Source: Notamacropus eugenii
Lineage: Eukaryota > Chordata > Mammalia > Diprotodontia > Macropodidae
Assembly (NCBI RefSeq): GCF_028372415.1
Contig: NC_092877.1
Coordinates: 247,561,010 to 247,625,009 of the forward strand
Direction of reading: 5' to 3'
Length of the DNA: 64,000 bases
A program made the position numbers and the translations under genes. Of the stretch, positions 1-58,285 are shown piece after piece (within the stretch, counting starts at the first letter, position 1; every line of letters starts with the position of its first letter). A model generated the notes under the pieces. That model had not been told where the DNA came from. It saw only the letters and a list, made by a program, of their open reading frames with translations, and made no database searches.

Positions 1-6
1 CGGAGC

Positions 7-16
7 CAAGATGGCG
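7..16 (+). promoter_or_regulatory. YY1-type motif at element 5' end
   Basis: CAAGATGGCG matches the core of the YY1 site. Human L1 has a YY1 site at the same place, just inside the 5' end, where it sets the transcription start. Here it sits about 10 bases from the inferred element start. Function is inferred from position and from the same motif in other elements of this window. Confidence 0.5.
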
Positions 17-126
17 AAGTAGAAAGACGCACATACACATAGCTCCGAACACACAAACCACAGAACGGCTAGAGGGGACCAACCCAGGGCTAATTCTGCA
101 CCCAGAGACCACGGAATATTGGAGCG

Positions 127-442
127 AGGGAGATTTCTGTTCCGGAGAGACCTGCAAACCTCTCGCGGGGGGACCTTGGCGCCAGGGACTGGGCGCCGGA
201 GGGGGAAGAGGAGAGCAGCCCTGCCGTGGCAGCGACACCATGGGAAAGAGATCCAGCGGCCACGCGGGTTCCCCCACCCACAGAGGGACCTGCAAACCTC
301 TCGCAAAAGGTCTGTTGCGCTGCAGACACGGTGCCCAGCCCTGACCTGCGGCGGCAACGGCGGCCGGGGCTCCGAGAGACAAAGTTCTGAGAGGGATCCG
401 GGGGCGGGATCTTCAGCAGCTGCACGGGCCCCCCACCAACAG
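127..442 (+). repeat. Tandem duplication in HAL1-type 5' leader
   Basis: CCTGCAAACCTCTCGC occurs at 151-166 and again at 289-304, a spacing of 138 bp. The two flanking blocks (about 127-282 and 283-442) share further landmarks: a GC-rich CTGCC/GGCAGC segment, then CCCACCCACAG or CCCACCAACAG. Copy 2 has only one such block, which explains most of its shorter leader (674 versus about 820 bp). Confidence 0.6.
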
Positions 443-820
443 GTGACTGACGGGGATAGGTGAGAGAGTCTCTTTAGCGGGTTGAGAGGGGAGAGTGGTG
501 CACCCATAGCTCGGGCCCCCCCCCCCCCCGGGAGGTGGGGGCTGAGAGGCGGCTGCGGACGGGGAAACGAGTGGGAGCCTGGATCCATTGTGGAAGGTCT
601 GTGTATAAACCCCCTGAGGGAACTGAGCCAGAGAGGCGGCCCTGCCCCTGACCTCAGCACCTGAGCCTAATTTAACACTGAATAACAGCCCTGCCCCCGC
701 CAAAAATCCTAAGGCGGGAAGCAGCATTTGAATCTCAGTCCCCAAACGCTGGCTGGGAGGACCAGGAGGCGAGGTGGATGTGAGGAGAACATTCAGAGGT
801 CAGGCCACTAGGGGGAGACA

Positions 821-1909
821 ATGCCAAGAAAAGGGAAGAGAAATAAAACTATTGAAGGGTACTTTATTGGAGAAAAATCACTTCCTCCCTTCCTTTCTGA
901 TGGGGAGGAACAATGCTTGCCATCAGGCAAAGACACAGAAATCGAGGACTCTGTGCCCCAGCCCACCCAATGGGCTCGGGCCATGGAAGAGCTCAAGAGG
1001 AATTTTGAAAATCAAGTTAGAGAGGTGGAGGAAAGACTGGGAAGGGAAATGAGAGGGATAAGGGAGAAGCATGAAAAACAGATCAGCTCCCTGCTAAAAG
1101 AGAACCAAAAAAATCTTGAAGAAATTGGCACCTTGAGAACTAGCCTAACTCAGCTGGCAAGGGAGGTGCAAGGGGCCAATGAGGAGAAGAATGCTTTCAA
1201 AAGCAGAATTAACCAAATGGAAAAGGATATTCAAAAGCTTACTGAAGAAAATAGATTTCTCAAATCTGGAATGGTACAGATGGAAGCTTTGGACTTTTCG
1301 AGAAAGACAGATATCTCAGAACATACCGCGCAGATTCAAAAAATGGAAGATAATGTGAAATATCTTATTGGAAAAACAACTGACCTGGAAAATAGAATCA
1401 GGAGAGACAATGTAAAAATTCTGGGTCTACCTGAAAACCATGATCAAAAGAAGAGCCTAGACATCATCCTCCACGAAATTATCAAGGAAAACTGCCCTGA
1501 GATTCTAGAACCAGAAGGTAAAATAAACATTCAAGGAATCTGCAGAACACCGCATGAAAGGCATCCAAAAAGAGAAACTCTTAGGAGCATTGCGGCCAAA
1601 TTCCAGAGTTCCCAGGTGAAGGAGAAGATATTGCAAGCAGCTAGAAAGAAACAATTCAAGTATTGTGGAAATACAATCAGGATAGTATAGGATCTGGCAC
1701 CTTCTACATTGAGGGATAGAAGGGAATGGAATAGGATATTCCGGAGGTCAAAGGAACTAGGACTGAAGCCAAGAATCACCTACCCAGCAAAACTGAATAT
1801 AATACTTCAGGAGAAAAAATGGTCTTTCAATGAAATAGAAGACTTTCAAATTTTCCTGATGAAAAGACCAGAGCTGGAAAGAAAATTTGACTTTCTAACA
1901 CAAGAATGA
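821..1909 (+). pseudogene. L1 ORF1 protein gene, single nonsense codon
   Basis: ORF1p is the RNA-binding trimeric chaperone of L1 ribonucleoprotein particles. The frame starts at the ATG at 821 (MPRKGKRNK) and would give 362 residues, the same length as copy 2 with no gaps. It has a basic N-terminus, a long heptad coiled coil (about residues 53-192), an RRM-like domain opening near residue 197 (NVKILGLPE), and a C-terminal domain (RITYPAKL). A TAG at 1688-1690 replaces the Gln found at codon 290 of copy 2. The frame then stays open to the normal stop at 1907-1909. A truncated protein would keep the coiled coil and RRM but lose the C-terminal domain. There is no ORF2 downstream. Confidence 0.85.
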
Positions 1910-2043
1910 AGAGAACCATAGGAAGGCGAACAGCAGAGAGAAATCATAAGGGACTTACTAAAGTTGAACTGTTTACATTCGTACATGGAAAGACAATATT
2001 TATAACTCTTGAAACATTTCAGTATCTGAGCACTGGGTGGGAG

Positions 2044-2098
2044 TACACACACACACACATGCACACACGCACACATACATAGAGACAGAGTGCACAGA
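2044..2098 (+). repeat. CA-rich tract in HAL1-type 3' UTR
   Basis: Imperfect (CA)n followed by AGAGACAGAG. The same position in copies 2, 3 and 4 carries a related but differently sized repeat, so it is part of the element, not a chance microsatellite. Confidence 0.7.
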
Positions 2099-2807
2099 GT
2101 GAATTGAAGAGGATGGGATCATATACTAAAAAAAAAAAATGAAATCAAGCAGTGAGAGAGAAATATTGGGAGGAGAAAGGGAGAAGTTATATGGGGCAAA
2201 TTATCTCTCATAAAAGAGGCAAGCAAATGACTTATTAGTAGTGGGATAAAGAGGGGAGGCAAGAGAAAAACATGAGATCTACTCTCATCACATTCCACTA
2301 AAGGAAAGAATATAATGCACACTCATTCTGATAGGAAAACCTATCTCATAATACAGGAGAGTGGGGGACAGGGGCACAAGCAGGAAGGGGGGGAGGATAG
2401 AGTGGAGGGCATGGGGAGGAGAATGCAATATGAGGTCAACACTCACGGGGAGGGAAAGGAACATAAGAAAATAGAAGTAATGGGGGACAGGACAGGATGG
2501 AGGGAAATATAGTTAGTCTTATACAACACAACTAGTATGGAAATCATTTGCAAAACTAAACAGATATGGCCTATATTGAACTGCCTGTCTTCCAAGGGGA
2601 AGGGGTAGTGAGGGAGGGAGCTAAAGAAGTTGGAACTCAAAGTGTTAGGACCAAATGTAATGTTCTTACCACTGGGTAACAAGAAACACAGGTTAAGGGG
2701 TCAAGAAAGCTATCCGGCCCTACGGGACAAAAGAGAAGACGGAGACAAGGGCAGGGAGGGAGGATAGAGGAGAAAGCAGATAGGTCACAGGGGCAATTAG
2801 AAAACTT

Positions 2808-2840
2808 GGGTCTGGGGGGGGAGGGGGAAAAAAGGGGAGA
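2808..2840 (+). other. G-rich tract before the A-tail
   Basis: Runs of G (GGG, eight G, five G, GGGG) lie just upstream of the A-rich end. L1 3' UTRs of several mammals carry such guanine tracts able to form G-quadruplexes. Here it is seen only as sequence. Confidence 0.5.
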
Positions 2841-2889
2841 AAATTTGTAACCCAAAATTAAAAGTTTAATAAAAAAAATAAAAAAAAAA

Positions 2890-5198
2890 GAATTGCTTTT
2901 GAAATATCCCATAATAATTAGTAGGTTCTCTAATTACTGTCTTTCACTTGATTGAAGTTGTTGATTGTTTTTATTTGTTTTTTTTTTAAAGCACTCATTC
3001 TTTAGGATTAGATTATTTAATTTCCAATTAATTTTTGCTCTGTCTTTCCATGGCCATAACCTCTATTTTATTATGATCTGAGAAGAATGCATTGATTATC
3101 TTTGCCTTTCTGCATTGGATTGTAAGGATTTTATGGCCTAGTTCATGGTCAGATTTTATATACGTGCCATGTTCCGTTGAGATAAAGATATATTCCTTTC
3201 TATTCCCATTCTGTTTTCTCAAGAGATCTATCATATCTGCCTTATCTACAGTTTTATTCACCTCCTTAACTTCTTTCTTATTTATTTTGAGGTTAGATTT
3301 ATCAAGTTTAGAGAGGGGAAGGTTGAGATGCCCCACTGGTATACTTTTGCTGTCTCCTTCTTCCTCTAACTTCATTAACTTCTCTTGTAAGGAATTGGAT
3401 GCTATACCACTTGGAGCATATATGTTTATTAATGAAATTGCTTTGTTGTCTATTGTGCGTGTTAGCAGAATATAGTTTCCTTCCTTATCTCTTTTGATTA
3501 GATCTATTTCTGCTGTTGCTGTGTCTGAGCTTAGGATGGCTACTGCTGATTTTTTTCTTTACAACAGCTGAAGCACAATAAATTCTGCTGCAACCTTTCA
3601 CCTTTACCCTATGTGTATCTCCCCTTTTTAAATATGTTTCCTGTAAATAACATATTGTTGTATTATGATTTTTAATCCATTCTGCTATCCATCTCCCTGT
3701 TTTATGGGAGAGTTCATCCTATTAACATTCACAGTTATGGTTACTGTTTTTGTCTTTCCCTCCATCCCCTTTTCCCTTCTTTATGCTTTTAGTTCTTCCT
3801 TGTCTCTTCCTCTTCCCAAAAGTTTTAATTTTTGACCACTTCCTCCTTTAGTCTTCCCACCCTTCATTGAGCGCTCTTACTTTTAATCCCCTTTTCCCTG
3901 ACTAATTCTTCCCTCCTTTTAACCGACCCTCCCTTTTCTTTCCCCCTTCCCTTCCTATTGTCTACAGAATTAGTAGTATTTCTATACTTAACTGAGTTTG
4001 GTATACTTTCCTTGAATCCAATCAGATGAAAGTACCTCTCAAGCAATACTCATCTCCCTCCTTTCTTTCCCTCTACTATAACATATTTTTCTGCCTCTTC
4101 CTGTGGTGGAATCTATTGCTTTCTGCCTCCTCCTTTTCACATCTCCCATTACAATCCCTTTGCACCCTTGAATCACATTGGTTATCAATACATTATTTAA
4201 TTTATACCCACTCCCTCTATCTATGTATATTCCTTTTACATTTCATAAAAAAAAATATACAATTCTCAAGGTTGACAAGTATCATCTTCCTTTATAGGGA
4301 TGTAAACAGTTTGCCCACATTGTGTAACAATATGCCTCTCTTGAGAACTGCATTTGAAGATCAAATTTTCTGATGAGTTCTGGCCTTTTCATCATGAAGC
4401 TCTGGAAATCCCTTATTTCATTGAATGTTCATATTCTTGCCAGGAACATTATGGTGAACTTTGCTGGGTAATTTATCTTGGTTGTAGTCCTAGCTCTTTT
4501 GCCTCACAAAATATCTTATTCTAGTTCCTTCAAAATTTAATGTAGAAGCTGCAAGGTCCTGTGTGACCCTGGATATTTGTTTCTTTCTAGTTGCTTGCAG
4601 TGTTTTCTCCTGGACTTAATGGCTTTGGAATTTGGCAACGGTATTCCTTGCTGTTTTTTAGTTTGGGGTCCCTTTCAGGAGGTTAATGGTAGATTCTTTT
4701 GATGAAGATTTTGCCCTCTGCATCCAGAACTTGTGGACAGTTTTCCTAGATGATTTCTTGGAGGATATTCTCCAGGCTCTTTTTTTCCCCATAGCTTTAT
4801 GGTAGACAATAATTCTTATGTTTTCTCTCATGGAACTATTTTCCATATCAGTTGCTTTTCCAATTGGATATTTTACTTTTTCTTCTATCTTTTAATTCTT
4901 TAGATTCTCTTTGACTGATTCTTGATGTCTCATAGAGTCAATAGCTTCCTGATTCTAAGTTTTATCAAATTGTTTTCTTCAGTTAACTTTTGCATCTCCT
5001 TTTACATCTGTCCAATTGTTCCTTTTAAGGAGTTATTTTCACCAGTTAGGTTTTTCACTTCCTTTCCCATTTGTCCAATTTTCCTTTTTAAAGGGCTGTT
5101 CTCTTCAGTGAATTCTTTTTTCATATTTTTAAAATAATTGGCCAGTTTTTTTTCTATTTCTCTAATTTGTTTCTTAAAATCCATCAGTTGCTTGTAAG
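2890..5198 (-). mobile_element. Old L1 fragment: ORF1 plus 5' part of ORF2
   Basis: Read on the minus strand, 5244 to about 4040 holds a decayed ORF1 with repeated coiled-coil heptads and a C-terminal domain. About 3750 down to 2890 holds the ORF2 endonuclease half: a start resembling NVNR-NSPIK, then DKEGNYILL, LINIYAP and SDHELGHK. Several frameshifts and stops are present. It continues to the left edge, where HAL1-type copy 1 interrupts it. Confidence 0.75.
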
Positions 5199-11371: not shown

Positions 11372-11885
11372 GACGAACTTACATTCATCTATCACAACTT
11401 GTTCAGCCATTCCCCAATTGATGGGCAATCCTTCAATTTCCAGTTCTTGGTCACCACAGACAAATATTTTAGTACATGTGGGTCCTCTTCCCATGTTTAG
11501 GATCTCTTTAGGATACAGTCCTGTGAGGGATAGGCCTAGTTGAAAGGATATTCACATTTTTGTAGCCATTTGTTCTCTGGATTAGAACACAGCTACGTTA
11601 ACAAGGAATTAGTGTTCCAACTTTCTGACATCTACTCCAAGATTTATCATTTATCATTTGTCATTGTAGTGTTTTGTCAAGTTAGCCAATCTGATAGTTG
11701 TGATGTGGTACTTCAGAGTTGTTTTGATTCACATCACTCTAATAAATAATTATTTAAAATATTATATTCATATGACTATTGATAACTTTAGTTTCTTCCT
11801 CTAAAAACTCCATTTCCTTTGAACACTTATTAATTGGGGAATGACTTGTAAATTTGACTCAGTTTTGTATATATTTTAGAAATGA
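11372..11885 (-). mobile_element. Old L1 (minus), 3' portion of ORF2: outer layer of nest
   Basis: The minus strand encodes the ORF2 C-terminal region (reads back from ...PINWG-AEQVV to LISKIYTKLSQIY). It ends at 11885 in AGAAATGA. The same ORF2 reading resumes at 22441 with the same 8 bases, so this fragment and 22441-28142 were one element before the plus-strand L1 landed. The 3'-most ORF2 and the 3' UTR are not seen. Confidence 0.85.
11878..11885 (+). repeat. Left TSD of nested L1 (AGAAATGA)
   Basis: AGAAATGA at 11878-11885 is repeated at 22441-22448. Removing 11886-22448 restores continuous minus-strand ORF2 sequence (GATAAAACCTCATTTCT then AAAATATATA). Confidence 0.85.
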
Positions 11886-17752: not shown

Positions 17753-18353
17753 TGTTGGGATTGGAAGCTCAATTCCGTGTGGACAGTCTCGGGCGGGTAA
17801 AGGTGGGAGCTTCTAAATCTTAGAGCTCTCACGAGACCCCCCCAGGAAACGGCAGGGAATCGAGGTGAACCGAGCTATCTCGAGTAATTCCGCCTCTTCC
17901 CGTGAGAAACGTGATGGGAGAGAGATCTCCCCACCCTCGATATTGTCCCGGATCTGGGCACACCTAGTTACCTAACAGCACAGTATTGAGATGCAAACTA
18001 TGCGGCTGAAAGTTCAGTAGGATTGAGGAAGCCTGAAAGCTCTCTTAGCACGTGAGGAGCCAAGAGGACAGTAGGCTCCGCTTTTCTTCTTTCCTCTCTC
18101 CCCTCCCCCTCTCTCCCCGCTTGTACTTCTACTTCCAATCCCTTAAGATCTTAGCCTCCTTAGGAAATCTCCCCCTCTTCCTCCTAAGGAAGATCCCCCT
18201 GCACTTGTAACCGAGACCCCGAAATAAAGCTCAATCCTTGTTCGACTCTGGAACGTCCTTTCTCTCATATGAGCATCTGGTTTTGTCCAACCGAAGACCT
18301 CGGAGGTGAGGTAAGAAGACTCGGGTACCCCCCCCAGGCCTCTAGGCCTGGCA
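17753..18353 (+). repeat. ERV-1 5' LTR
   Basis: 601 bp from TGTTGGGATTGG to GGCCTGGCA. A polyadenylation signal AATAAA lies at 18223-18228. Near the end are a paired splice-donor-like sequence and a short inverted repeat (AGGCCTCTAGGCCT). Confidence 0.92.
18304..18319 (+). promoter_or_regulatory. Candidate splice donor inside LTR U5
   Basis: GAGGTGAGGTAAGAAG contains two overlapping donor consensus sites (AG|GTGAGG and AG|GTAAGA). It is downstream of the AATAAA signal, so it would lie in U5. The 3' LTR has the same sequence. The related solo LTR at 56979-57586 keeps AGGTAAGA. Confidence 0.45.
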
Positions 18354-18355
18354 GT

Positions 18356-18375
18356 TGGCGTCTCCGAACAGGGAC
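18356..18375 (+). other. ERV-1 primer-binding site (tRNA-Lys-like, altered)
   Basis: TGGCGTCTCCGAACAGGGAC begins two bases after the LTR. It equals the tRNA-Lys(UUU) complement TGGCGCCCGAACAGGGAC except for two extra bases and a local change after TGGCG. Confidence 0.6.
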
Positions 18376-18508
18376 AGGAGCACAGATATCCTGGGTGTTT
18401 TTGGGGAACACCCGGAAGGGGCTGTGAAAGAAGCGAGTCCCGAATCCTAGATTCGGAAGGAGAGAAAGAGTGAGAGAAGCTTCCCACACCCATGGGAAAA
18501 GGGCAGAG

Positions 18509-19522
18509 ATGGCGAATCTATTGCCAGTAATAAAGCCAGAGGAACAAGAGGTCTGGGCTGAGAAACTTCACAGGGAATGCAGGAAGGCGGGGGTCACAAT
18601 AGAGTTAGATGACCTCTGAGAATTTTGTAAAAGGATTTGGAAAGTTTCTCCTTGGCTCAAGCAGGCAGGAATATCAAGACAAAAATGGGGAGCGGTTGGA
18701 GAGCAAATGATTGTTTATGAGCAACAATACCCTGGGGAGCTGGAGGATTTAGATTTCCTGATATTTGGTGTAATTAAGAGCCTGCTGGAAGGTCCAGAGA
18801 GGCCAGGGCGGGATTGGAATGAGAGTGGAAGTGGAGAGAGGGGAGGGGAGAACACGGGAGGGACGGAGAGTCCAGGCAAGCAGAAAGTTAAGCGGAAAGT
18901 TAAGGAGCGTAAAGAAAAAATAGACTCGGAGCTTCATCTAGCAGATGGAAAAGGCGAGGCAGGGGAGAATACGCCATGCCTTCCCTCCGCGCCTCCTTAT
19001 AACCTGCTCCATTGGTCAGACAGTTCAGGGCCACAGTCCAGTTTGGAAAAAGGAATAAGAAAGGCTATAGAGAATGGAGAAGATGTAGGGACATTTCCTG
19101 TGCTAGAAATAGCGGACCCCAGTGTCCCCGGTGGCGTTCGAAGGAGCCACATACCCATAGAGTGGAAGAGAGTGGCGACTCTTAAAGAGGCTTGTACCAA
19201 GCATGGCCCTAATTCACCCTTTGTCATAGCCATGCTTGAAACTCTCAGTGGTCAGTTCGTTCTGACTCCTAATGACTGGAAGAGCTTAGCCAGAGCCTGC
19301 CTTACCCCTGGGCAGAATGTGATTTGGGTATCAGAATTTTCTCAGAGGGTAAAGAGCACTACCAGTGGGCTAGGGGCTCAGGCCCCCCAGGCTTATCAGC
19401 AATTTACAGGAACAGGGCAGTTTGAGGCTACAGGAAATCAGTTACAGTACTCAGCCTCCGATTATGTCTTGATTGCCGGAATGGCTATTAGCCGCCTCGG
19501 GATGAGGTTATCAAATTTTTAG
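18509..19522 (+). pseudogene. ERV-1 gag remnant (matrix to capsid N-domain)
   Basis: Gag forms the virion shell. The likely ATG is at 18509 (MANLLPV). The frame hits TGA at 18617-18619 (codon 37) and then stays open from 18620 to 19522. The first part is matrix-like. The middle (about 18790-19000) is acidic and lysine-rich. From about 19130 there is a segment typical of betaretroviral capsid N-domains, with GPNSPFV and LTPNDWKSLARACL. The frame ends just after SDYVLIAGMAISRLG, where capsid C-domain, nucleocapsid and protease are deleted. An alternative ATG at 18492 is out of frame. Confidence 0.8.
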
Positions 19523-20160
19523 TAAGGGCCATTGCTGTTGCTCTGGAGTCCCCACCCTTGAATTGGAAGTCAGACACCCCGATTTGGGTGGAGCAATGGC
19601 CCCTGACTCCAGAAAAACTCCAGGCATTACAAATACTGGTTAAGGAGCAATCAGCACCCTGGAATGCTCCTGTGTTTGTTATAAAGAAAAAATCCGTAAA
19701 GTTCAGGTTCCTTACAGATGTTAATCAAGCATTTGTAAGTACCTGGCAGCAGCTATACCAAAATAAACAGCCACTATGCATTCTTATCAATTTTACCTTA
19801 AAGGCGATTCTCGCTAAACAAAGAAGGGGAGATAGAGATCGCCTAATACAATCAGAGCTTGATACAGCTGTCTCAAGGAACTCACATACTACTCCAGCTA
19901 TGAGACATTTTAAGATACTAATATGGAGTCGAGGGTATGTTTGTGTCTCCATAGGAAAAGGTCATGCGTGGATTCCCATTAGAAGGATCCGTAGGTGGGA
20001 ACCAATGTCGGAGACGGCGGAGACGCAGGAGGCGGAGACCCCGGAGAGCCCGGAGACCCCGGAGAAGGATCATGCACCACCTGAGTCTGCTGCTGACAGC
20101 TTTAACTTTACTGCCCAGAGAGAAAGCAGCCCTCGTCACAACTGCAGACACTGCCGCTGA
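19510..20160 (+). pseudogene. ERV-1 pol remnant: RT start fused to integrase end
   Basis: Pol supplies reverse transcriptase and integrase. In the frame of the ATG at 19558 the sequence begins with the RT N-terminus (WVEQWPLT, APVFVIKKKS, LTDV). It has a short gap before SAPWN, then jumps at about 19735 to the integrase C-terminal domain (KQRRGDRDR, then WSRGYVCVS and AWIPIRRIRRW). All RT catalytic residues, RNase H and the integrase core are missing, yet the frame is open for 200 codons. The tail (20009-20070) is rich in E, T and P. It is coded by a GGAGAC-type repeat that overlaps the env-frame arginine block. Confidence 0.75.
19817..19833 (+). other. Internal copy of the polypurine tract
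   Basis: AACAAAGAAGGGGAGAT is identical over 17 bases to the 3' polypurine tract at 20551-20567. It lies inside the integrase coding region (coding KQRRGD), the place where lentiviruses carry a central polypurine tract. Confidence 0.55.
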
Positions 20161-20197
20161 CAGCCTTCAATCTAGGCATCCTTTTTACGCCAGCTGA
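19964..20197 (+). pseudogene. ERV-1 env-frame start with arginine-rich block
   Basis: The +2 frame, overlapping the end of pol, gives a run of arginines (about 20000-20068) followed by MHHLSLLLTALTLL, a signal-peptide-like hydrophobic stretch. It then ends at 20197. In betaretroviruses the env leader often begins with an arginine-rich segment that also makes a Rec/Rem-type RNA-export protein, so this may be the remnant of such a leader. The rest of env is deleted. The ATG at 19964 lies in pol and would not be the natural start without splicing. Confidence 0.5.
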
Positions 20198-20550
20198 ATG
20201 AGGACTTTGATATCACAGACTCAGACACTTGGGGGGGGGGAGGAGGTGACCAATTTTCCACCTGTATAGATCCATTTGCAAGATTAAGGGGGGTGGTGAC
20301 GTGTAAGGCGCCAGCACCAGCTGCTCCTCTTAAAAAATGCTTTGGGACCAGTTGATTGCACTTCCCCTGCTGTAACTCAGCCATTTAGTTTCATCTTTGT
20401 TTTATTTGATGCCTCCCTTTGTCAGTTGTGCTAGCTGCAGATTTCTGTGTGAATGAAGTCTTGTTGTAGGGTACTCATATGCTAAAGGCCTTCCTAATCC
20501 ACTCAGCCTCCAGCCACTGTTTGCTCTAGAGCCAGGTGCGCTCCGCACAT
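20198..20550 (+). other. ERV-1 3' internal region, non-coding remnant
   Basis: Contains a G-rich run near 20230 and no open frame of note. It probably joins env sequence to the 3' leader after deletion. No domain recognised. Confidence 0.5.
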
Positions 20551-20566
20551 AACAAAGAAGGGGAGA
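20551..20566 (+). other. ERV-1 3' polypurine tract
   Basis: AACAAAGAAGGGGAGA directly precedes the 3' LTR TGTTGGG, the expected plus-strand primer site. Confidence 0.9.
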
Positions 20567-21168
20567 TGTTGGGATTGGAAGCTCAATTCCGTGTGGACAG
20601 TCTCGGGCGGGTAAAGGTGGGAGCTTCTAAATCTTAGAGCTCTCATGAGACCCCCCCCCGGAAATGGCAGGGAATCGAGGTGAACTGAGCTATCTCGAGT
20701 AATTCCACCTCTTCCCGTGAGAAACGTGATGGGAGAGAGATCTCCCCGCCCTCGAGATTGTCCCGGATCTGGGCACACCTAGTTACCTAACAGCACGGTA
20801 TTCAGATGCAAACTATGCGGCTGAAGGTTAAGTAAGATTGAGGAAGCCTGAAAGCTCTCTTAGCACGTGAGGAGCCAAGAGGACAGTAGGCTCCGCGTTT
20901 CTTCTTTCCTCTCTCCCCTCCCCCTCTCTCCCCGCTTGTACTTCTACTTCCAATCCCTTAAGATCTTAGCCTCCTTAGGAAATCTCCCCCTCTTCCTCCT
21001 AAGGAAGATCCCCCTGCACTTGTAACCGAGACCCCGAAATAAAGCTCAACCCTTGTTAGACTCTGGAACGTCCTTTCTCTCATATGAGCATCTGATTTTG
21101 GCCAACCGAAGACCTCGGAGGTGAGGTAAGAAGACTCGGGTAGCCCACACAGGCCTCTAGGCCTGGCA
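20567..21168 (+). repeat. ERV-1 3' LTR
   Basis: 602 bp, colinear with the 5' LTR. About 20 substitutions and one single-base length change are seen by eye. AATAAA at 21038-21043. Ends GGCCTGGCA followed by CCAAAC. Confidence 0.92.
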
Positions 21169-22440: not shown

Positions 22441-24629
22441 AGAAATGAGGTTTTATCGGAGACACTACTTGTAAATGTTCTTTCCTCATCTTGCTTTCCT
22501 CCTAATTTGGTTACTTTGGTTTTGTTTATGCACAAACTTTGAATAACACTGGTGACAATACCCATCCTTGTTTCAAGCCTTATTTATTGGAAGTGAATCT
22601 TGCTTGTCAACACTACATATAGTGCTTGCTAATGGTTTTAGGTACATGTTACTTAGTTTAAGTAAGGATCCATTTATTCCTATATCCTCTGATGTCTTCA
22701 GTAGTAATGGGTATTGTATTTTGCTAAACGCTTTTTCTGTATCTGTTGATAAAATCATATGGTTTCTGTAAGGTTTGTGGTTGATATGATCAGTTATGCT
22801 GATAGTTTTTCTAAGATTGTACCAGTTCTGCATTCCTAGTATAAATCCTACCTGATCGAGGTTTGTTATTCTTGTGATAAGCTGTTGAAATTTTTTTATT
22901 AATATTTCATTGAAATTGCTTGTATCTATATTAATTAGGGAAATTGATTTATAATTTTCTTTCTCTATTTTGGCTCTTCTTGTTTTAAGTAACAGTACCA
23001 TATTTGTACCACAAAAATTATTTGGTAGGATTCCTTCACCAATTTTCCGAAAAGCCTATATAGTATTAGAATTAATTGTTCTTTAAATATTTGATAGGAT
23101 TTACTTATAAATTCATAGTTTCTTGGGAATTTTTGCCAGAGAGATCATTGGTGGTTGGTTCAATTTATTTTTGTGAGATAGGGTTATTTAAGTATTTTAC
23201 TTTTTCTTCTGTAAGTCAGAGAATTTTCTATATTTTTTAAAAATTTTCATCTATTTCATTAGGATTGTCACATTTATGGGCATATGATTAGGCAATATAA
23301 TTCCTAATTACTGTTTTAATTTCCTCTTCTTTGGAAGTGAATGTACCCATTTCTTTTTTGATCTTGGTAATTGGACTTTTTTTCTTTTTTTAATCAAATG
23401 GCCAATGATTTATCAAATTTATTGTTTTGTTTTTATGAATCCAGCCCTTAGCTTTATTTATTAGTTAAATAGCTTTATTAGTGTCAATTTTATTAATATT
23501 TCCTTTGGTTTTTAGTATTTGTAATTTAGTATTCACTTTGGGATTTTCAATTTGTTCTTTTTCTAGCTTTTTCAGTTGCCTACCCAAGTCATTGACCTTG
23601 TCTTTCTCAATTTTATTCATGTAAGCATGGAGTGATATAAAACTTCTTCTAAGAACCACTTTGGCTACATCCCATAAGTTTTGGAGTGTTGTCATGTAAT
23701 AGACCCATGTGATTTGCTTAAATCACAAGAAAGCCTAATTCAGATATGTTGAGAGGAGCTTGCTGAAAGGGTAAAAAGAGAAGGGTGGAGCAGGACTGGG
23801 AGGAAGTTGGTGAGAGCAGTTAAGTTGGAGAAAACACTCAGCACTGCTAGTTTCTTAAATGTTTCTTAGTGAGAAGACTCCAGGAACAGGGTGGACTGGA
23901 AGGATATTTGGAAATGGTTTTGTCCCTCTCTTTCTTAATGTATATTGACTTCTTGATTACTATAATGGATATCTTTCTTGTTTTGGAATTTGACTTCCTG
24001 GTGTCTGAATAAATATTTTTCTTTGGTCTTCCATATGAAAAGTCTGTTATACTTTGCCATTCAGAAATATGCCAGTACATACAAAGTCTCAGTAGGGGTG
24101 TGAATATTGCCTTTGCAGTACGTGTCTCATTATTGTCATTCTCTTGAATGATGTTCTTAATCATCATTATGATTTGTATTTTTTTTTAACCAACTCATTC
24201 TTGAGGATTACATTATTTAGCTTCCAATTAATTTTTAAGCTATTTTTCATAGTCTGTTATTACATATAATATGTATTGCATCATAAACTGAAAAGTATGC
24301 ATTTAAAACTTCTGCTTTCTGCACTAGAATGTCATATTTTTATGCCCCATTAATTTGTGTGTATGTACCATGTTCCACTGAGAAAAGGATAAATTTTTTT
24401 ATATCCCCATTCAATTTTCTCCACAGGTCTATGATACCTATCTTTTCTAATATTCTATTCACCTCCATAATTTATTTATTTATTTTTTACTTTGAGGCTA
24501 TATCTTCAACTTCAAAGATGGAGAAGTTGAGGTCCCCCACCAGTATAGTTTTGCTATCTATTTCTTCCTATAATTCCCTTATGTTCTCCTCTAAGAATAT
24601 GGATGCTACACCACTTGGTGTGAACGTAT

Positions 24630-24633
24630 ATAA

Positions 24634-24714
<81 letters not shown>

Positions 24715-24816
24715 TAGATATAGATATAGATATATAGATATAGATATAGATATATAGATATATAGATATATAGATATATAGGTATAGATAGATAGATATA
24801 GAGAGAGGTATAGATG

Positions 24817-24870
<54 letters not shown>

Positions 24871-24999
24871 CTGATAGACAGATAGATCCACACCACTTGG
24901 TGTGTATGTATATAGATATAGATAGATATAGATACAGATATCTATCTTTCTATCTATCTATTTATCTATCATCTATCTATCTATCTATCTATATGTGTG

Positions 25000-25058
<59 letters not shown>
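24630..25058. repeat. Compound (TA)n/(GATA)n/(GT)n microsatellite in L1 ORF2
   Basis: TATA tract, GATA and GATATA arrays to about 24882, a copy of CACCACTTGGTGTG, a second TAGATA/CTAT block, then (GT)n at about 25011-25058. The L1-derived CACCACTTGGTGTG occurs at both 24610-24623 and 24890-24903, so the array grew together with a duplicated piece of ORF2. Confidence 0.9.
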
Positions 25059-25061
<3 letters not shown>

Positions 25062-28000
25062 GTAATGATACCACTTCATTGTCTATGGTGCCTTTTAGCA
25101 GGATATAGTTTCCTTCCTTATCTTTTTTGCTTAGATATATTTTTTGCTTTTGCTTTGTCTGAGATGAAGATTGCTACCCCTATTAATTTTTTTTTACTTC
25201 AAGTCAAGCATAATATATTGTACTTGGCTTTTTGTCATTCCACTGTGCGTATGCCCCTGTCTCAAATGTGTTTCTTTTAAACAATATATTTTAGGATTGT
25301 GACTTTAAACCCATTCTGTTCTCTGCATATGTTTTATGGGAGAGTTCGTTACATTCACACTCATAGTTATGACTACTATTTGGGTCTTTCTTGTCATCCT
25401 ATTTCCTTCCATTTTTTCCCTTTTATTTGTCCTTTTCCCCTTCCCTTCCTTAAAACAGTTTTGCTTTTGACCACTGCTTCTTTCAATTTTCCCTCCCTTT
25501 TATGACTCTTCCCTTTTCTTTTCCTTTTACCTTACTACTTCTTCCCTCCTTTCTAATCACTCTCTCTTTTCCCCCTTTCTCCTCCTACTGCCTGCTGTAG
25601 GGCAAGTTATATTTCTATACTTATCAGAGTATGTTATTCCTTCCTTGAACCAAATCTAATGAGAATAAAGCACAAACTATGCTTATCTTCCTCCTTCTTT
25701 CCCTCGACTATAATTGCTTTTGAGTCTCTTTATATGATGGAATTTACCTCTTTCTGCCTCCTCCTATCCTCCTCTCTCATTACAATCCCTTTTCACCACT
25801 TACCTAGCTTTTATATCACCACATCAGTTAATTTATAGCCATACTCTCTGTCTACGTATATCCATTGTAAATGTTGTGATAAATACACCATTTTCAAGAT
25901 GAACAAGGATTATCCTCCCATGTAGGAATGTAAACAGTTTGCCCTCATTGAATAACAAAGTATTTTTTTTCTTATATTCCCCCTTTTAACCTTTCTATTA
26001 CTGTCTTGAGTCTTCTATTTGCAGATTAAATTTTCCATTGAGCACTGTCCTTTTCATCAGGAATGTCTGGAAGTCGCTTATCTCATTGAATGTCCATCTC
26101 CTTACCTGAGAGATTATGCTAAACATTGCTGAGTAGTTGATCCTTGGTTGTAGTCCAAGTTCCTTTGCCTTACAGGATATCATATTCCAATCCCTTCGAT
26201 CTTTTAATATAGAAGTGATACCATCAGTAGTTTCTCAGTATTTGAGTTGTTTCTTTATGATTGCTTGCAGTATTTTCTCCTTGACCTGAAAATTTTGGAA
26301 TTTGCTTACAATATTCCTTGGAGTTTTCAATTTGGGAACTTTTTCAGGAGTTGAACTGTGGATTCTTTCAATGACTCTTTTTACTTCTTTTTCCAGGAAC
26401 TTGGGGTAATTTTCTTATATGATTTCTTGGAAGATATTGTCCAGGCTCTTTTTTTCATCATGACTTTCTTGGTATACCAATAATTCTAAGATTATCTCTC
26501 CTGGATCTATTTTCCTAGTCAGCTTTTTTCCCAGTAAGATATTTCACATTTTCTTCTATTTTTTCATTTTTTTAATCTTGTTTGGCTGATTCTTGAGGCC
26601 TTATACAATCATTAGCATGTACTTTCCCAGTTCTAATTTTTAACAAATTGTTTCCTTCATTTTGCTCGTGTACCTCCTTTTCTATTTAGCCAATTTGCTG
26701 TTCAAGGAGTTGTTTTTTTATTCTTAGGTTTTCTACTTCTGTATCCATTTGGCCAACTTTACTTTTTAAAAAAAAAATTTTCCCCTTCAGTGATTAATTT
26801 TTGCATTTTGTTGACTGCATTTTTAAAATAGTCAATTTTTCTTCTGCCTCGCCCAAATGACTTTGAAAATGCTCCAATAATTCTTCCAAGAATACTTTTT
26901 TGCCTTGAGACAAGTTCATATTTCCTTTAGAGGTTTCAGATGTGAGTATAGTGCTAACGCTCTCTCCCTTTGAAGTCATATTTTGATCTTCCATGTCCTC
27001 ATAGTAAGACTTATTGGTCTTTATCTTTCTAATTTGTTTTTTACCCATGCTGATTGTCCTTTTTCCAGCTTTTAAAGTCAATCTCTGCTTCTGATTCCCA
27101 GGGGCCTCAGTCCCAAGCTTCTTCTTCTAGGAGTTAGGGGCCTGGTTACTGGCTTTTTGTGCTATGACCTCTGATTCTGTCTGCTAGAAGCTATATAATG
27201 CTGCTGCTCACCTGGTGCTGAGCTGGAGCTGGCTGGTGTGTCCAAGGTCAAAGCCAGGTGTAGTCTTTCTGAGTTTCCCTGTGGTTACACTAAAGCTCAG
27301 AACATGAGGTTTGGGGAAGGGGTGGTATGGCTGCTGGAAGTCTTCTCCTACACTAGGGTTTTGCTAGATCACAGGTATACTCAGCCAGTGGTGGACACCT
27401 GTCTACACTGGTGTGTGCCAATTTCCCTGGTTGTATAAAGGCACGTCTGGTAACCTGGTATAGGTTGTTGATAGTTCCATCCCCCTTAGGCTCAAGATTT
27501 CCTGCTGGTCTGCTGAGGTGGGCCTGGGTACATGCCTCTCAGCCTGATCTGATCCTCTTCATCCACAGCAAGGGATACCTTTCCTGGTGATCTCCTTATC
27601 TTCTTGATCTAAAAGACTGCAGGAACATTTCTGCTGGCTCTACTATTTCAGGATTTTTCCTGAGGCAATCTTCTCTGGGCTTTTCAAGGTCAATAAAGGG
27701 GAGATGAGAGCACTTAAGGATGCTTCTCCATCTTAACTCTTGGAAATTCAAGTAGGTGACTTTCAAAGATTAATCTTTTAGTTGATAGCTCCAGGAGTAG
27801 CTGCTGCCACTTCCATAGGCCCTGAACTTCTGTATCACTGAGCTCTGACAGAACCCATCCTGTGTTGAGAGGTTTGAGAACCACCACTGCCAGGGAAGCT
27901 CACTGTAGCTCCATTATGGTGGGCTGTAGACTCTCATTCTCTGTGTACTCCCAGACAAGTGCAACAGACCCTTCACATTGACCTTCCATACTCTTCTGTG

Positions 28001-33402: not shown

Positions 33403-33417
33403 CCATTGCACTTTCTT
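33403..33417 (+). repeat. HAL1-type copy 2 left TSD
   Basis: CCATTGCACTTTCTT, repeated exactly at 36188-36202. Confidence 0.93.
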
Positions 33418-34242
33418 TTTTTTTTTTAATTTTTAATTAATTAAATTTATTTATTTAAGTTTTAACATTCATTTTCAAAAATTTTGGGTTACAAATTTTC
33501 TCACCTTTTATCACCTCTCCCCCCAAACATCAAGCATTCTAATTGCCCCTATGACCAATCTGCTCTCTCTTCTATCATCCCTCTCTGCCCTTGTCTCCAT
33601 CTTCTCTTTTGTCCTGTAGGGCTAGATAGCATTCTATACCCCTTTACCTGTATTTCTTATTTCCTAGTGGCAAGAACATTACTCGACAGGTGATCCTAAC
33701 ACTTTGAGTTTCAACTTTTTTACCTCCCTCCCTCTCCACCCCTTCCCTTTTGAAGGCAAGCAATTTGATATAGGCCAAATATGTGTAGTTTTGCAAATGA
33801 CTTCCATAATAGTTGTGTTGTATAAGACTAACTATATTTCCCTCCATCCTATCCTGTCCCCCATTACTTCTATTCTCTTTTGATCCTATCCCTCCCCATG
33901 AGTGTCGACCTCAAATTGCACCCTCCTCCCCATGCCCTCCCTTCTATCATCCCCCCACCCTGCTTATCCCCTTATCCCCCACTTTCCTGTATTGTAAGAT
34001 AGGTTTTCATACCAAAATGAGTGTGCATTTTATTCTTTCCTTTAGTGGAATGTGATGAGAGCAGACTTCAAGTTTTTCTCTCACCTGCCCTCTTTATCCC
34101 TCCACTAATGAGTCTTTTGCTTGCCTCTTTTATGAGAGATAATTTGCCCCATTCAATTTCTCCCTTTCTCCTCCCAATATATTTCTCTCTCACTTCTTGA
34201 TTTCATTTTTTTTTAAGATATGATCCCATCCTCTTCAATTCA

Positions 34243-34297
34243 CTCTGTGCACTCTGTCTCTATGTGTGTGTGCGCATGTGTGTGTGTGTAATCCCAC
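34243..34297 (-). repeat. CA-rich tract in copy 2 3' UTR
   Basis: Minus-strand ACACACACACATGCGCACACACACATAG, at the same place as in copies 1, 3 and 4. Confidence 0.7.
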
Positions 34298-34424
34298 CCA
34301 GTACCCAGATCCTGAAATGTTTCAAGAGTTACAAATATTGTCTTTCCATGTAGGAATGTAAACAGTTCAACTTTAGTAAGTCCCTTATGACTTCTATTTG
34401 CTGTTCACCTTTTCATGCTTCTCT

Positions 34425-35513
34425 TCATTCTTGTGTTTGAAAGTCAAATTTTCTTTTCAGCTCTGGTCTTTTCATCAAGAATGCTTGAAAATCCTCTATT
34501 TCATTGAAATACCATTTATTCCCCTGAAGTATTATACTCAGTTTTGCTGGATAGGTGATTCTTGGTTTTAGTCCTAGTTCCTTTGACTTCTGGAATATCC
34601 TATTCCATGCCCTTCGATCCCTTAATATAGAGGCTGCTAGATCTTGTGTTATCCTGATTGTATTTTCACAATACTTGAATTGTTTCTTTATAGCTGCTTG
34701 CAATATTTTCACCTTGACCTGGGAACTCTGGAATTTGGCCACAATGTTTCTAGGAGTTTCTCTTTTTGGATCTCTTTCAGGCGGTGTTCTGTGTATTCCT
34801 TGAATATGTATTTTGCCCTTTGGTTCTAGGATCTCAGGGCAGTTTTCCTTGATAATTTCATGAAAGATGATGTCTAGGCTCTTTTTTTGATCATGGCTTT
34901 CAGGTAGTCCCATAATTTTTAAATTGTCTCTCCTGCATCTATTTTCCAGGTCAGTTGTTTTTCCAATGAGATATTTCACATTATCTTCCATTTTTCCATT
35001 CTTTTGGTTTTGTTTTGTGATTTCTTGCTTTCTCATAAAGTCATTAGCCTCCATCTGTGCCATTCTAATTTTGAAAGAACTATTTTCTTCAGTGAGCTTT
35101 TGAATCTCCTTTTCCATTTGGCTAATTCTGCTTTTGAAAGCATTCTTCTCCTCATTGGCTTTTTGAACCTCTTTTGCCAATTGAGTTAGGCTAGTTTTCA
35201 AGGTGTTATTTTCTTCAACATTTTTTTGGGTCTCCTTTAGCAGGATGCTGACCTGCTGTTCATGCTTTGACTTCATGTCTCTCATTTCTCTTCCCAGCTT
35301 TTCCTCCACCTCTCTAACTTGATTTTCAAAATTCTTTTTGAGCTCTTCCATAGCCTGAGCCCATTGGGTGGGCTGGGACACAGAAACCTTTGCTTCTGTG
35401 TCTTTCCCTGATGGTAAGCATTGTTCTTCCTCATCAGAAAGGAAGGGAGGAAATGCCTGTTCACCAAGAAAGTAACCTTCTCTAGTCTTATTTCTTTTCC
35501 TTTTTCTGGGCAT
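34425..35513 (-). CDS. L1-type ORF1 protein, intact, 362 aa
   Basis: Encodes the L1 RNA-binding protein, a trimeric coiled-coil chaperone that coats its own RNA in cytoplasmic particles. The start MPRKRKRNK matches copy 1. Residues 1-50 are basic then acidic. 53-192 form a heptad coiled coil (LTQLAKEVQ, SQMEKEIQKLTEEN). About 193-290 form the RRM-like domain, with first strand NLKIMGLPE (197-205) and FQSSQVK (261-267). 291-362 form the C-terminal domain, with RITYPAKLS (318-326) and a DFQAFLMKRP end. No stop or frameshift occurs. By eye about five in six residues match copy 1, with no gaps. There is no partner ORF2, so movement would need RT from another L1. Expression is not shown. Confidence 0.85.
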   Translation of the reverse strand: MPRKRKRNKTREGYFLGEQAFPPFLSDEEEQCLPSGKDTEAKVSVSQPTQWAQAMEELKKNFENQVREVEEKLGREMRDMKSKHEQQVSILLKETQKNVEENNTLKTSLTQLAKEVQKANEEKNAFKSRISQMEKEIQKLTEENSSFKIRMAQMEANDFMRKQEITKQNQKNGKMEDNVKYLIGKTTDLENRCRRDNLKIMGLPESHDQKKSLDIIFHEIIKENCPEILEPKGKIHIQGIHRTPPERDPKRETPRNIVAKFQSSQVKVKILQAAIKKQFKYCENTIRITQDLAASILRDRRAWNRIFQKSKELGLKPRITYPAKLSIILQGNKWYFNEIEDFQAFLMKRPELKRKFDFQTQE

Positions 35514-36165
35514 TTTCCCAGCCAGTGACTTGACCTCTGAATATTCTCCTCACACCCACCTTGCCTCCTGATCCTCCCAGCCAGCATTTGAGGTCTGAGA
35601 TTCAAATGCTGCTTCCAGCCTCAGGGCTTTTGGAGGGGGCAGGGCTGCTATTCAGTGTGAGATTAAGTTCAGGTGCTCAGGTCAGGGCAGGGCCGCCTCT
35701 CAGGCTCAGTTCCCTCAGGGAGTTTATGCACAGACCTTCAACAATGGATCCAGGCTCCTGCCTGCTTGGGGAGACCTGGTCTGCTGCTGCCCCTCAGCTT
35801 CTGCCTCCCAAGGGAGCCCGAGCCATGGGGGCACCCCACTACCCCCTCGACCTGCCAAAGAGACTCTCTCACAGACCCCTGTCACCTGTGGGTGGAGGGA
35901 GTTGTGCGGCCCCTGGAGATCCCGTCCCTGAAGCCTGCTCGGATCTGTTTATCGTGGTGCTGCCGCCGCGGCAGGTCTGGGCTGGGCTCCGTGTCTGCAG
36001 CGCGATGGACCTTTTGCAAGAGGTTTGCAGGTCCCTCTGGAACAGAAATCTCCTTCGCTCTACTGTTCTGTGACCTCACTGCTCCAGAATTCCCCATGAG
36101 TTACTTTATACAGATGTTCTATGGGTTGTGGGTTCGGAGCTATGTGTATTTGTGTCTTTCTACTC

Positions 36166-36175
36166 CGCCATCTTG
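36166..36175 (-). promoter_or_regulatory. YY1-type motif at copy 2 5' end
   Basis: CGCCATCTTG (minus strand CAAGATGGCG), about 12 bases inside the element. Confidence 0.5.
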
Positions 36176-36202
36176 GCTCCGACTCCCCCATTGCACTTTC
36201 TT

Positions 36203-56062: not shown

Positions 56063-56125
56063 GAGTAGACTGAGCTTCCTTCCCCTCCTTCTCCTCTCCT
56101 TCTCTGCTCCCCTCCCTTCCCCTTC

Positions 56126-56978
56126 TTGTTGAAAAGACTAGAACTGAATAGAAAATTTGACTTTCGAATACAAGAATCAAGAGAAACATTAAGAGATAAA
56201 CAGGAAAGAGAAACCTTAAGGAATTCATTAAATTTGAACTGTTTAGATTCCTACATGGAAAGATGTTATTTGAAACTCATTAGCCCTTTTTCAGTATTAG
56301 GGTAGTATATGTGTGTATGTATATAGACAGAGGACACAGGGACACAAGGTGAGTTGAATATGAAGGGAGAATATCTACAAGAAATAAAATTCACTGTTGA
56401 ATGGAATGTGTTAGAAGTAAGACAGAGGCAGAAGTAGAATGTAGCAGATCATCTCACATACAAGAGGGAAGAAAAAGCTTTTACAATGAACAGGAGGAAG
56501 GGGGAGATGGAAGGAAAATGAGCTTTACTCTCATGGGATTTGGCTTGAGGAAGGAATAACACGCACTCAATTAGATAAGGAAATCTATTTTATCCTGCAG
56601 GAAGGCAAGGATGATAAGGTTAGGAGAGGGAAGTTAATAGGAGGGACAGAAAATTGGGGAAAGGGATAATCAGAAGCAAACACTATTGTCTGAGGACAGA
56701 TCAAGGGAGAGAATGGAATAAATGAAGGGCAGGATAGGACAGAGGGAAGTGTGGTTAGTCTTTACAACATAAATATTGTGGAAGTACTTTGCATTGTTAC
56801 ACATATATTACCTATATTGAATTGCTTGATTTCTCGGGTGGGGAGGGAGAAAATGTGAAATTCAAAGCTTTAAGAATAAATCCTAAAAATTGTTCTAGCA
56901 TACTACTGGAAATTAAGCTTTACAGGCAATGGAATATAGAAATCTATTTTGCTCTTCAGGAAAATACAAGGCAAAGGA
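56126..56978 (+). mobile_element. HAL1-type element, copy 4 (5'-truncated), left part
   Basis: Begins in the last codons of ORF1 (KRLELNRKFDF-like, 56130-56165) and passes straight into the HAL1-type 3' UTR without ORF2. Interrupted at 56978 by a solo LTR. Confidence 0.75.
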
Positions 56979-57586
56979 TGTTGGGACTGGAAGCTCAATT
57001 CCGTGTGGACAGTCTCGGGCAGGTAAAAGTGGGACTTCTAAATCTTAGAGTCTTACGAGGCCCTCCATGAACAGCGGGGGTTCGAGACGGTCAGACCGAG
57101 CTAGCTCGGCTAGCTCGGGTATTTCCGCCTCTCCCCCGGAGATACCTGATGGGTGGAGTCTCCCTGCCCTCGAGGTCGTCCCGGATTGGAGCACACCTAG
57201 TTACCTAACAGCACGGTATTGAGATGCAAACTGTGTGGCTGAAGATTGAGTAGGATTGAGGAAGCCTAAAAGCGCTCTTAGCACGTGTGGAGCAAAAGAG
57301 AAAAGTAGGGCTCCGCTTCTTTTCTTTCCTCTCTCCTCTCCCCCTCTCTCCCCCGCTTGTACTTCTATTTCCATTCCCTTAAGCTTAGCCTTCTTAGGAA
57401 ATCTCCCCCTCTTCGTCCTAAGAAAGAAGACCCCCTGCACTTGTAACCGAAACCCTGTAATAAAGCTCAACCCCTGTTTGACTCTGGAACGTCCTTTCTC
57501 TCATACGTGCATCCGGCGTGGCCAGCCGAAGACCTGGACAGGTAAGAAAGACTCGGGTAGCCCAATACAGGCCTCTAGGCTTGGCA
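56979..57586 (+). mobile_element. Solo LTR of the ERV-1 family
   Basis: 608 bp, TGTTGGGACTGG to GCTTGGCA, flanked by AAAGGA at 56973-56978 and 57587-57592. Same layout as the ERV-1 LTRs but clearly more diverged, with an extra AGCTAGCTCGGCTAGCTCGGG repeat near 57100. Formed by recombination between two LTRs. A 118-codon open frame across it is not thought to be a gene. Confidence 0.92.
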
Positions 57587-57592
57587 AAAGGA

Positions 57593-57775
57593 TACGGACA
57601 AAGGGTGGGTAATAGAAGGGAGGACAGACTGGAGAAAGGAGTAGATGGGGTTCATGCTGTCTTGGGGTGGGGGTGGGACAAGATGGGGAGAAAATTTCCA
57701 ATTCAAATTTTTGTGGAAGTAAAAGTGAAGAACTGAAAATAAATAAATTATATATTTATAAAAATAAAAAATAAA
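57593..57775 (+). mobile_element. HAL1-type copy 4, right part and A-tail
   Basis: GATACGGACAAAGGGTGGGTAATAG ... GGGGTGGGGGTGGGACAAGATGGGGAGAAAATTTCC ... GAACTGAAAATAAATAAATTATATATTTATAAAAAT, the end of the HAL1-type 3' UTR. Confidence 0.75.
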
Positions 57776-58285
57776 ATAGCATACAGAGAAATACTATTTT
57801 TTTTTTTTGCCACTGATTACCCAGGTGAAATTCACCTCATTACCAATTCCTGGATCTGAGGTTGCTGCTTCTAAAAGTGCCATCTTACTCTGCTTTGTAT
57901 CACACAGTGCTGGAGAAATCTTGAATAAGTCATGCACAAAACTTTTTTTTTTAATTTTACATATAATATTTTTGATGCTTTATTTTTTTCATGTAGGGAG
58001 CATCAGGACCACCCCATATGACTGTGAGTGCTCTCTGTCTGCAGTCCATGGGCTGACATTGTGCTGAATTTAATTCCTTTTTTTTTTTTTTGACTAGACT
58101 TCTGTGAGGTGTGTGTTGGGTTTGTATTATTCAACTTCCTTGTTTAAATATCCTCTTCTTTGGTGACATCTGTTTGGGAGCCTACCTAGAAAAAGAGCAA
58201 ACAATAGGGCAAGTGTTTTGATGCTGAAAATTAACAAAGTGTCTTTTGAAATAAAGAAAGAATCCCTCCATAAAAAAAAAAAAAA
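57776..58285. other. Unassigned DNA
   Basis: Several T-runs; no gene or repeat recognised. Confidence 0.45.

Follow-up and report, generated by a model that had tools for sequence, protein, structure and literature searches.

An ORF1-only L1 derivative of the HAL1 kind and its apparently young family in the wallaby Notamacropus eugenii

The minus-strand element at 33418-36187 of the window, by which we mean the whole stretch of 64,000 nucleotides of Notamacropus eugenii DNA analysed here, is very probably a full-length HAL1, that is, an L1-derived, non-autonomous element with ORF1 only, which would descend from an old ORF2 deletion and receive ORF2p in trans. The original prediction had also read it as HAL1, and this reading holds: ORF2 is present in 0 of 24 and 0 of 12 genomic copies picked in two ways, and the ends are related to L1.

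Results

Structure of the element and of its relatives in the window

The element, here called copy A, has the predicted layout of a full 5' end, an intact ORF1 of 362 codons, an A-tail and no ORF2 (Table 1). No ORF2-like frame of at least 90 codons was found between ORF1 and the tail, and no ORF2 with endonuclease and reverse transcriptase, the mark of an autonomous L1, lies within 33418-36187. The perfect target-site duplication that had been claimed is 15 bp long and identical on both sides; the window contains its sequence, CCATTGCACTTTCTT, at just two places, 33403-33417 and 36188-36202, which bracket the element. A chance origin of this layout is excluded because the same structure is found at many genomic sites.

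The first 29 nt of copy A (..GGAGCCAAGATGGCGGAGT..) presumably resemble the YY1 site of human L1, and over this stretch the genomic HAL1 copy L021 and the genomic L1 copy L037 match at 93%. In the leaders of young HAL1 copies (e.g., L021), an antisense open frame extends across almost the whole leader and off the 5' end. This frame has 220 codons in most young copies, a length that shuffling over six frames reached 5 times in 1000, is broken in copy A, L004, L024, and L026, and is reminiscent of ORF0 of primate L1. A stretch of the leader is apparently duplicated in copy B (window 1-280), L024, and L026 relative to copy A, and is perhaps a variable promoter repeat.

In the other HAL1 copies of the window, B, C, and D, ORF1 is followed by a 3' region of the same type, again with no ORF2. 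The ORF1 of copy B has one in-frame stop, and the ORF1 part of copy C is ~73% identical to that of copy A. The window also holds L1 copies, which were aligned to L037: x and y retain ORF1, endonuclease, and reverse transcriptase (RT) parts, z retains ORF1, endonuclease, and the last part of ORF2, and w retains the later half of ORF2.

Several features of these L1 copies and their surroundings were recorded in passing. In z (2888-6184), the 5' part (minus strand) and the 3' part (plus strand) stand head to head and the middle is missing, like a twin-priming inversion. A short piece resembling the end of ORF1 (60306-60093) lies just downstream of the 3' end of w and is probably a separate fragment. 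Copy x is seemingly nested in y, whose pieces lie at 22539-26760 and ~11379-11885 on the minus strand, and x itself contains an endogenous retrovirus remnant (17753-21168) with a gag p24 frame (18707-19522) and LTR-like ends (17753-18353 and 20567-21168) that are 96.5% identical. The solo LTR-like stretch in copy D (56977-57586) matches this remnant at ~83%.

Table 1. Coordinates in the window of HAL1 copy A, its parts, and the other HAL1 copies
Feature	Position	Strand	Basis or remark
Full-length HAL1 copy A (2770 bp)	33418..36187	-	flanked by the exact 15-bp duplication; structure recurs at many genomic sites
Target-site duplication, 5'-end side of copy A	36188..36202	.	exact match
Target-site duplication, 3'-end side of copy A	33403..33417	.	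exact match
First 29 nt of copy A (..GGAGCCAAGATGGCGGAGT..), same as start of genomic L1 L037	36159..36187	-	via L021
5' leader, 674 bp, putative internal promoter	35514..36187	-	position between 5' end and ORF1 ATG
ORF1, 362 codons, intact	34425..35513	-	frame, domains, and structure match
L1 RBD-like domain, ORF1 residues 195-290	34644..34931	-	PF02994, E = 1.7e-11
L1 dsRBD-like domain, ORF1 residues 295-354	34452..34631	-	PF17490, E = 1.6e-10
3' region, first part, homologous to L1 ORF1-ORF2 spacer	33920..34424	-	HAL1 profile and L037
Zone with deletion join, exact base not fixed	33829..33919	-	between last spacer match and first L1 3'-UTR match
3' region, last part, L1 3' UTR-like	33430..33828	-	tail profile against L1 3' ends
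A-tail of copy A, inner limit approximate	33418..33430	-	sequence
HAL1 copy B, ~84-85% identical to A, no ORF2	1..2895	+	5' end at window edge
HAL1 copy C, older, no ORF2, inside old L1	38722..41806	+	ends and eroded duplication by eye
HAL1 copy D, 5'-truncated, begins at ORF1 end	56123..57776	+	broken by solo LTR-like stretch ~56977-57586

A composite 3' region and descent from L1

The region behind ORF1 had been described as a 1-kb 3' UTR, which is right as to its length and wrong as to its nature, as it is a composite in which ~500 bp of L1 inter-ORF spacer precede an end resembling the L1 3' UTR. Positions 63-507 of a post-ORF1 profile of copies A-D match the spacers of the L1s y, z, and x (E = 4.5e-24, 6.9e-17, and 1.1e-7, respectively). 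The HAL1 tail profile was compared with four L1 3' ends, and for each of them none of 250 dinucleotide shuffles scored as high. In the reverse test, the score was reached by 1 of 250 shuffles for copy A, 2 of 250 for B, and 0 of 250 each for C and D; for copies A and B alone, the apparent likeness of the tail to the L1 3' UTR is weak. Across the join zone, copies A-D align with no large gap.

The genomic copy L037 is an L1 of full length; it has a 14-bp duplication, and its ORF2 frame (3734-7627) is open over 1298 codons. Its ORF1 frame is open as well and lacks the initiator methionine that the protein P0012 has. L021 aligns with L037 from within ORF1 up to HAL1 position 2270, short of ORF2, at 68.6% identity, and again over about the last 60 bases at 74.6%. 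The ORF1 stop of L037 at 3211 and its ORF2 frame from 3734 give a wallaby L1 spacer of ~520 bp; the spacer between ORF1 and ORF2 of human L1 is far shorter. A 3' region unrelated to L1 is ruled out by the spacer profile, the tail shuffles, and the L037 match.

HAL1 has lost ORF2 and has its first 29 nt, spacer, and 3' end in common with L037, and would hence be an L1 from which a segment starting at the spacer's end and reaching into the 3' UTR has been lost. The lineage was probably founded by one old ORF2 deletion, which is the simplest account because copies A-D have the same join. It is extremely improbable that every ORF1-only copy came separately from a full L1 by a one-off deletion: repeated origins of HAL1s among mammals are reported (excerpts of PMC5753468), but A, B, C, and D align through one join, and the genomic copies have one structure and ORF1s that form a clade apart from the window L1s, all of which contradicts such an origin.

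The ORF1 protein

The protein encoded by ORF1 is of the L1 type, as it has both domains known from PF02994 and PF17490 and matches human L1 ORF1p structures, residues 146-354 of copy A aligning with 2yko at E = 2.7e-28. The proteins closest to it come from Notamacropus eugenii; two of these, P0001 and P0002, have 100% matches in the genome that contains the window. In a tree of 26 protein rows, for which 20 of the 73 protein hits were used, A, B, and C share a branch (support 96/95) with four proteins of N. eugenii, one wombat protein that may or may not derive from HAL1, and an ENA fragment, and x, y, and z fall outside this branch. With ORF1 as the query, viral_contigs yielded no relative. 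P0014, an L1 ORF1 protein labelled as belonging to a Bacteroidales metagenome-assembled genome (2533-base contig), groups with marsupial L1 ORF1s and is probably host contamination.

The family across the wallaby genome

Genome searches with three ORF1s gave at least 113 scored places each (from ~300,000 first-look candidates each), and at least 111, 93, and 92 of them had no internal stop; the three lists partly overlap and all these counts are lower bounds. One intact ORF1 with RNA-binding domains is what a domesticated gene like L1TD1, or a retrogene, would also present, but this number of dispersed places, with duplications and tails, contradicts such an origin. L1TD1 is also reported absent from marsupials (excerpts of PMC4161310), and we find a domesticated gene hardly conceivable.

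An ORF2 between ORF1 and the 3' region, named beforehand as the observation that would speak against HAL1, was found in none of the 24 distinct ORF1-picked loci besides A and in none of the 12 tail-picked copies, 36 sampled copies overall, so that the lack of ORF2 is a property of the family. This count covers the copies of the first ORF1 search and of the tail search, with the other two ORF1 searches outside it. The 24 loci exclude L001 (copy A itself) and L002, L003, and L006 (the same places as L009, L010, and L011). The tail-picked copies, drawn from 40 scored tail hits (924 candidates) at places absent from the first ORF1 list, serve as a check on the bias of the ORF1-picked sample towards conserved proteins.

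The alignment is unbroken from ORF1 to the tail in 23 of the 24 ORF1-picked loci; for L017, the 5' side is missing from the retrieved stretch, and L016 stops within the 3' region, at the start of its duplication. L016, a tailless or internally primed copy, ends where an A-rich stretch finishes, and its closing duplication measures 16 bp. All 12 tail-picked copies run into ORF1 and are 96.9-99.4% identical to L021; their ORF1s are free of stops in every case and of indels in 11, the remaining one having a 1-base insertion.

Compared with the majority sequence, 20 of the 24 ORF1-picked copies are 99.0-99.8% identical, four are 95.0-96.2% identical, and copy A is 94.8% identical. A DNA tree of 38 ORF1s, which leaves out C, x, y, and z, is ladder-like with a median end branch of 0.19%, and only 5 of its 32 inner branches are well supported. 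L018, L020, and L022 have identical ORF1s at different sites with different duplications, whereas copy A pairs with L004 and has an end branch of 2%. The join common to A-D, the ORF1 clade, and the ladder-like tree indicate that the copies spread as a family. This family seems to have moved very recently, because its copies are near-identical and have duplications and an L1-like cut motif. The recent mobility that had been proposed is thus borne out for the lineage, by the short end branches and the identical ORF1s, and not by the argument from copy A's own ORF; copy A is older, so its intact ORF says less than was held.

Over ORF1 and its immediate flanks, copies A and C are ~27% different. 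If substitutions are assumed to accumulate at 2-4e-9 per site per year, the two copies would have separated tens of millions of years ago, and from the shared join we infer what share of this time was run as HAL1. At G000:C2:278052704, 278060433, and 278068162, three intact HAL1-type ORF1s lie on the same strand with a spacing of exactly 7729 bp, which suggests a tandem array.

Insertion sites and possible L1 enzyme donors

Copy A and 21 of the 24 ORF1-picked loci have an A-tail and target-site duplications, the latter with a median of 16 bp; that of L011 is only 11 bp and that of L028 is repeat-like. At 22 sites including that of copy A, the cut motif is TT|AARAA, with T at -1 in 17 and A at +1, +2, +4, and +5 in 19, 20, 19, and 17, respectively, where the maximal-match placing of the duplications favours A at their start and so helps the motif. 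The duplications and the motif point to target-primed reverse transcription of the L1 type.

Among 150 scored RT hits, the open RT-bearing frame has at least 1260 codons in 29 and exactly 1298 in 16. The L1 copies used for comparison were L037 and L038, L029-L036 being left out; they are 99.2% identical over 4.3 kb, indicating that L1 is young too. L1s with open 1298-codon ORF2s are possible enzyme donors. Mobilisation by another reverse transcriptase, for example that of an RTE element, is highly improbable: the L1 ancestry of ORF1 and of both ends, the A-tails, the duplications of median 16 bp, the TT|AARAA motif, and the young L1s whose ORF2 is open all stand against it, even though RTE is reported to have been recently active in marsupials (excerpts of PMC5322556).

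With L1 as the donor, a promoter in the 5' leader would give rise to a polyadenylated HAL1 RNA, from which HAL1 would make its own ORF1p, most likely coating that RNA in cis. Target cleavage and reverse transcription would then be carried out in trans by ORF2p of co-resident L1s, as suggested by the cut motif and by the open ORF2s in the genome. ORF2p prefers its own RNA. It is plausible that HAL1 ORF1p packages its own RNA or competes with L1 ORF1p. In culture, pol II transcripts needed ORF1p besides ORF2p, according to excerpts of PMC2666806, which would be a reason for HAL1 to carry ORF1.

Probable selection on ORF1

The ORF1s of copies A and B (1089 bp) differ by 0 indels, against 10.4 expected from the noncoding parts, and by 1 stop, against 6.1 expected; at most one stop was seen in 1 of 500 simulations. 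Their omega is 0.41 (bootstrap 0.30-0.64), whereas a neutral simulation gave a mean of 0.72 (95% 0.46-1.06). For L022 and L051, a young A-type and a B-type copy, omega is 0.48 (0.28-0.77), and 75 and 99 of 1000 neutral simulations were as low. The fixed differences between B and all others give 0.58, and seven young tail-picked copies give 0.56, as expected from decay after insertion. In the A-B pair, the RNA-binding half of ORF1 has a lower value than the rest (0.30 vs 0.50); in L022-L051, the two barely differ (0.44 vs 0.48). Fixed subfamily differences, synonymous to nonsynonymous, are 1/0 (old vs rest) and 2/2 (mid vs young), too few to decide, and the within-group omegas of ORF1-picked copies (0.16-0.22) were set aside, as that sample is biased towards conserved proteins.

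Judged from these alignments, the conservation of the ORF1 frame is strong, while a dN/dS of 0.41-0.48 is only suggestive as a sign of selection. The original prediction had held that a dN/dS near 1 on internal branches would tell against it; the observed values lie away from 1, yet do not strongly depart from neutrality, and the internal-branch counts are too few. ORF1 may instead be a passenger, with the promoter, poly(A), and L1 proteins alone driving the jumping, ORF1 intact from youth, and its product dispensable in cis. Such a passenger would agree with the L022-L051 omega, which neutral simulations reach too often (75 and 99 of 1000) for it to stand clearly below them, and with the omega of ~0.56 within the seven young tail-picked copies, but it fits poorly with the A-B pair, where indels and stops are so few and omega falls below the simulated 95% range, and with the intact ORF1s of 11 of the 12 tail-picked copies. 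The need of pol II transcripts for ORF1p in culture (excerpts of PMC2666806) also counts against it, though L1 could supply that protein, and we consider a passenger ORF1 unlikely. ORF1 was most likely under selection while the lineage ran.

Discussion

As described in excerpts of PMC5322556 and PMC5753468, mammalian HAL1s have the L1-type ORF1, the lack of ORF2, the A-tail, the duplications, and the presumed dependence on L1 ORF2p that we find here; the wallaby family differs in being very young, with many intact copies. HAL1 also became active in rat, according to excerpts of a review (PMC8535693). With the wallaby L1s (L037, L038; x, y, z, and w), the family shares the ORF1 fold, the spacer, the first 29 nt, and the 3' terminal stretch, whereas L1 has an ORF2 frame of ~1298 codons, the stretch from ORF1 to spacer is only ~69% identical (L037), and, at the sensitivity used, the leaders of HAL1 and L037 have only their first 29 nt in common. 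SVA/LAVA and other L1-dependent pol II elements are non-autonomous like HAL1 and are thought to use L1 proteins in trans, but to our knowledge they carry no ORF1, unlike HAL1.

The wallaby has been screened by RepeatMasker for full-length L1 and HAL1 (excerpts of PMC5322556), so some wallaby HAL1 annotation exists. In the available part of the main text of the wallaby genome paper, the word HAL1 is absent and four tammar-specific LINEs are mentioned (PMC3277949). Among the best-ranked literature matches, a scope outside which the primary HAL1 paper of Bao and Jurka lies, no title naming a wallaby HAL1 family was found, which does not amount to its absence. HAL1 as a kind is already known; the wallaby family is unusually fresh and abundant, and may already have a Repbase or Dfam name.

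HAL1s keep ORF1 though L1 could supply ORF1p, and ORF2p must be obtained. Tentatively, and with more doubt than confidence, we suggest that one ORF2 deletion gave rise to a long-lived lineage beside the L1s, with an ORF1p and a leader of its own and with the start, spacer, and 3' end of L1 kept, whose ORF1p may draw ORF2p off L1 RNA; HAL1 would then be a stable parasite of L1 that may still be jumping, as opposed to a transient by-product. The many intact, near-identical HAL1s beside a young L1 make the cis role of HAL1 ORF1p testable, and the same HAL1-L1 pair lets one ask how a foreign RNA captures ORF2p and whether HAL1 slows L1.
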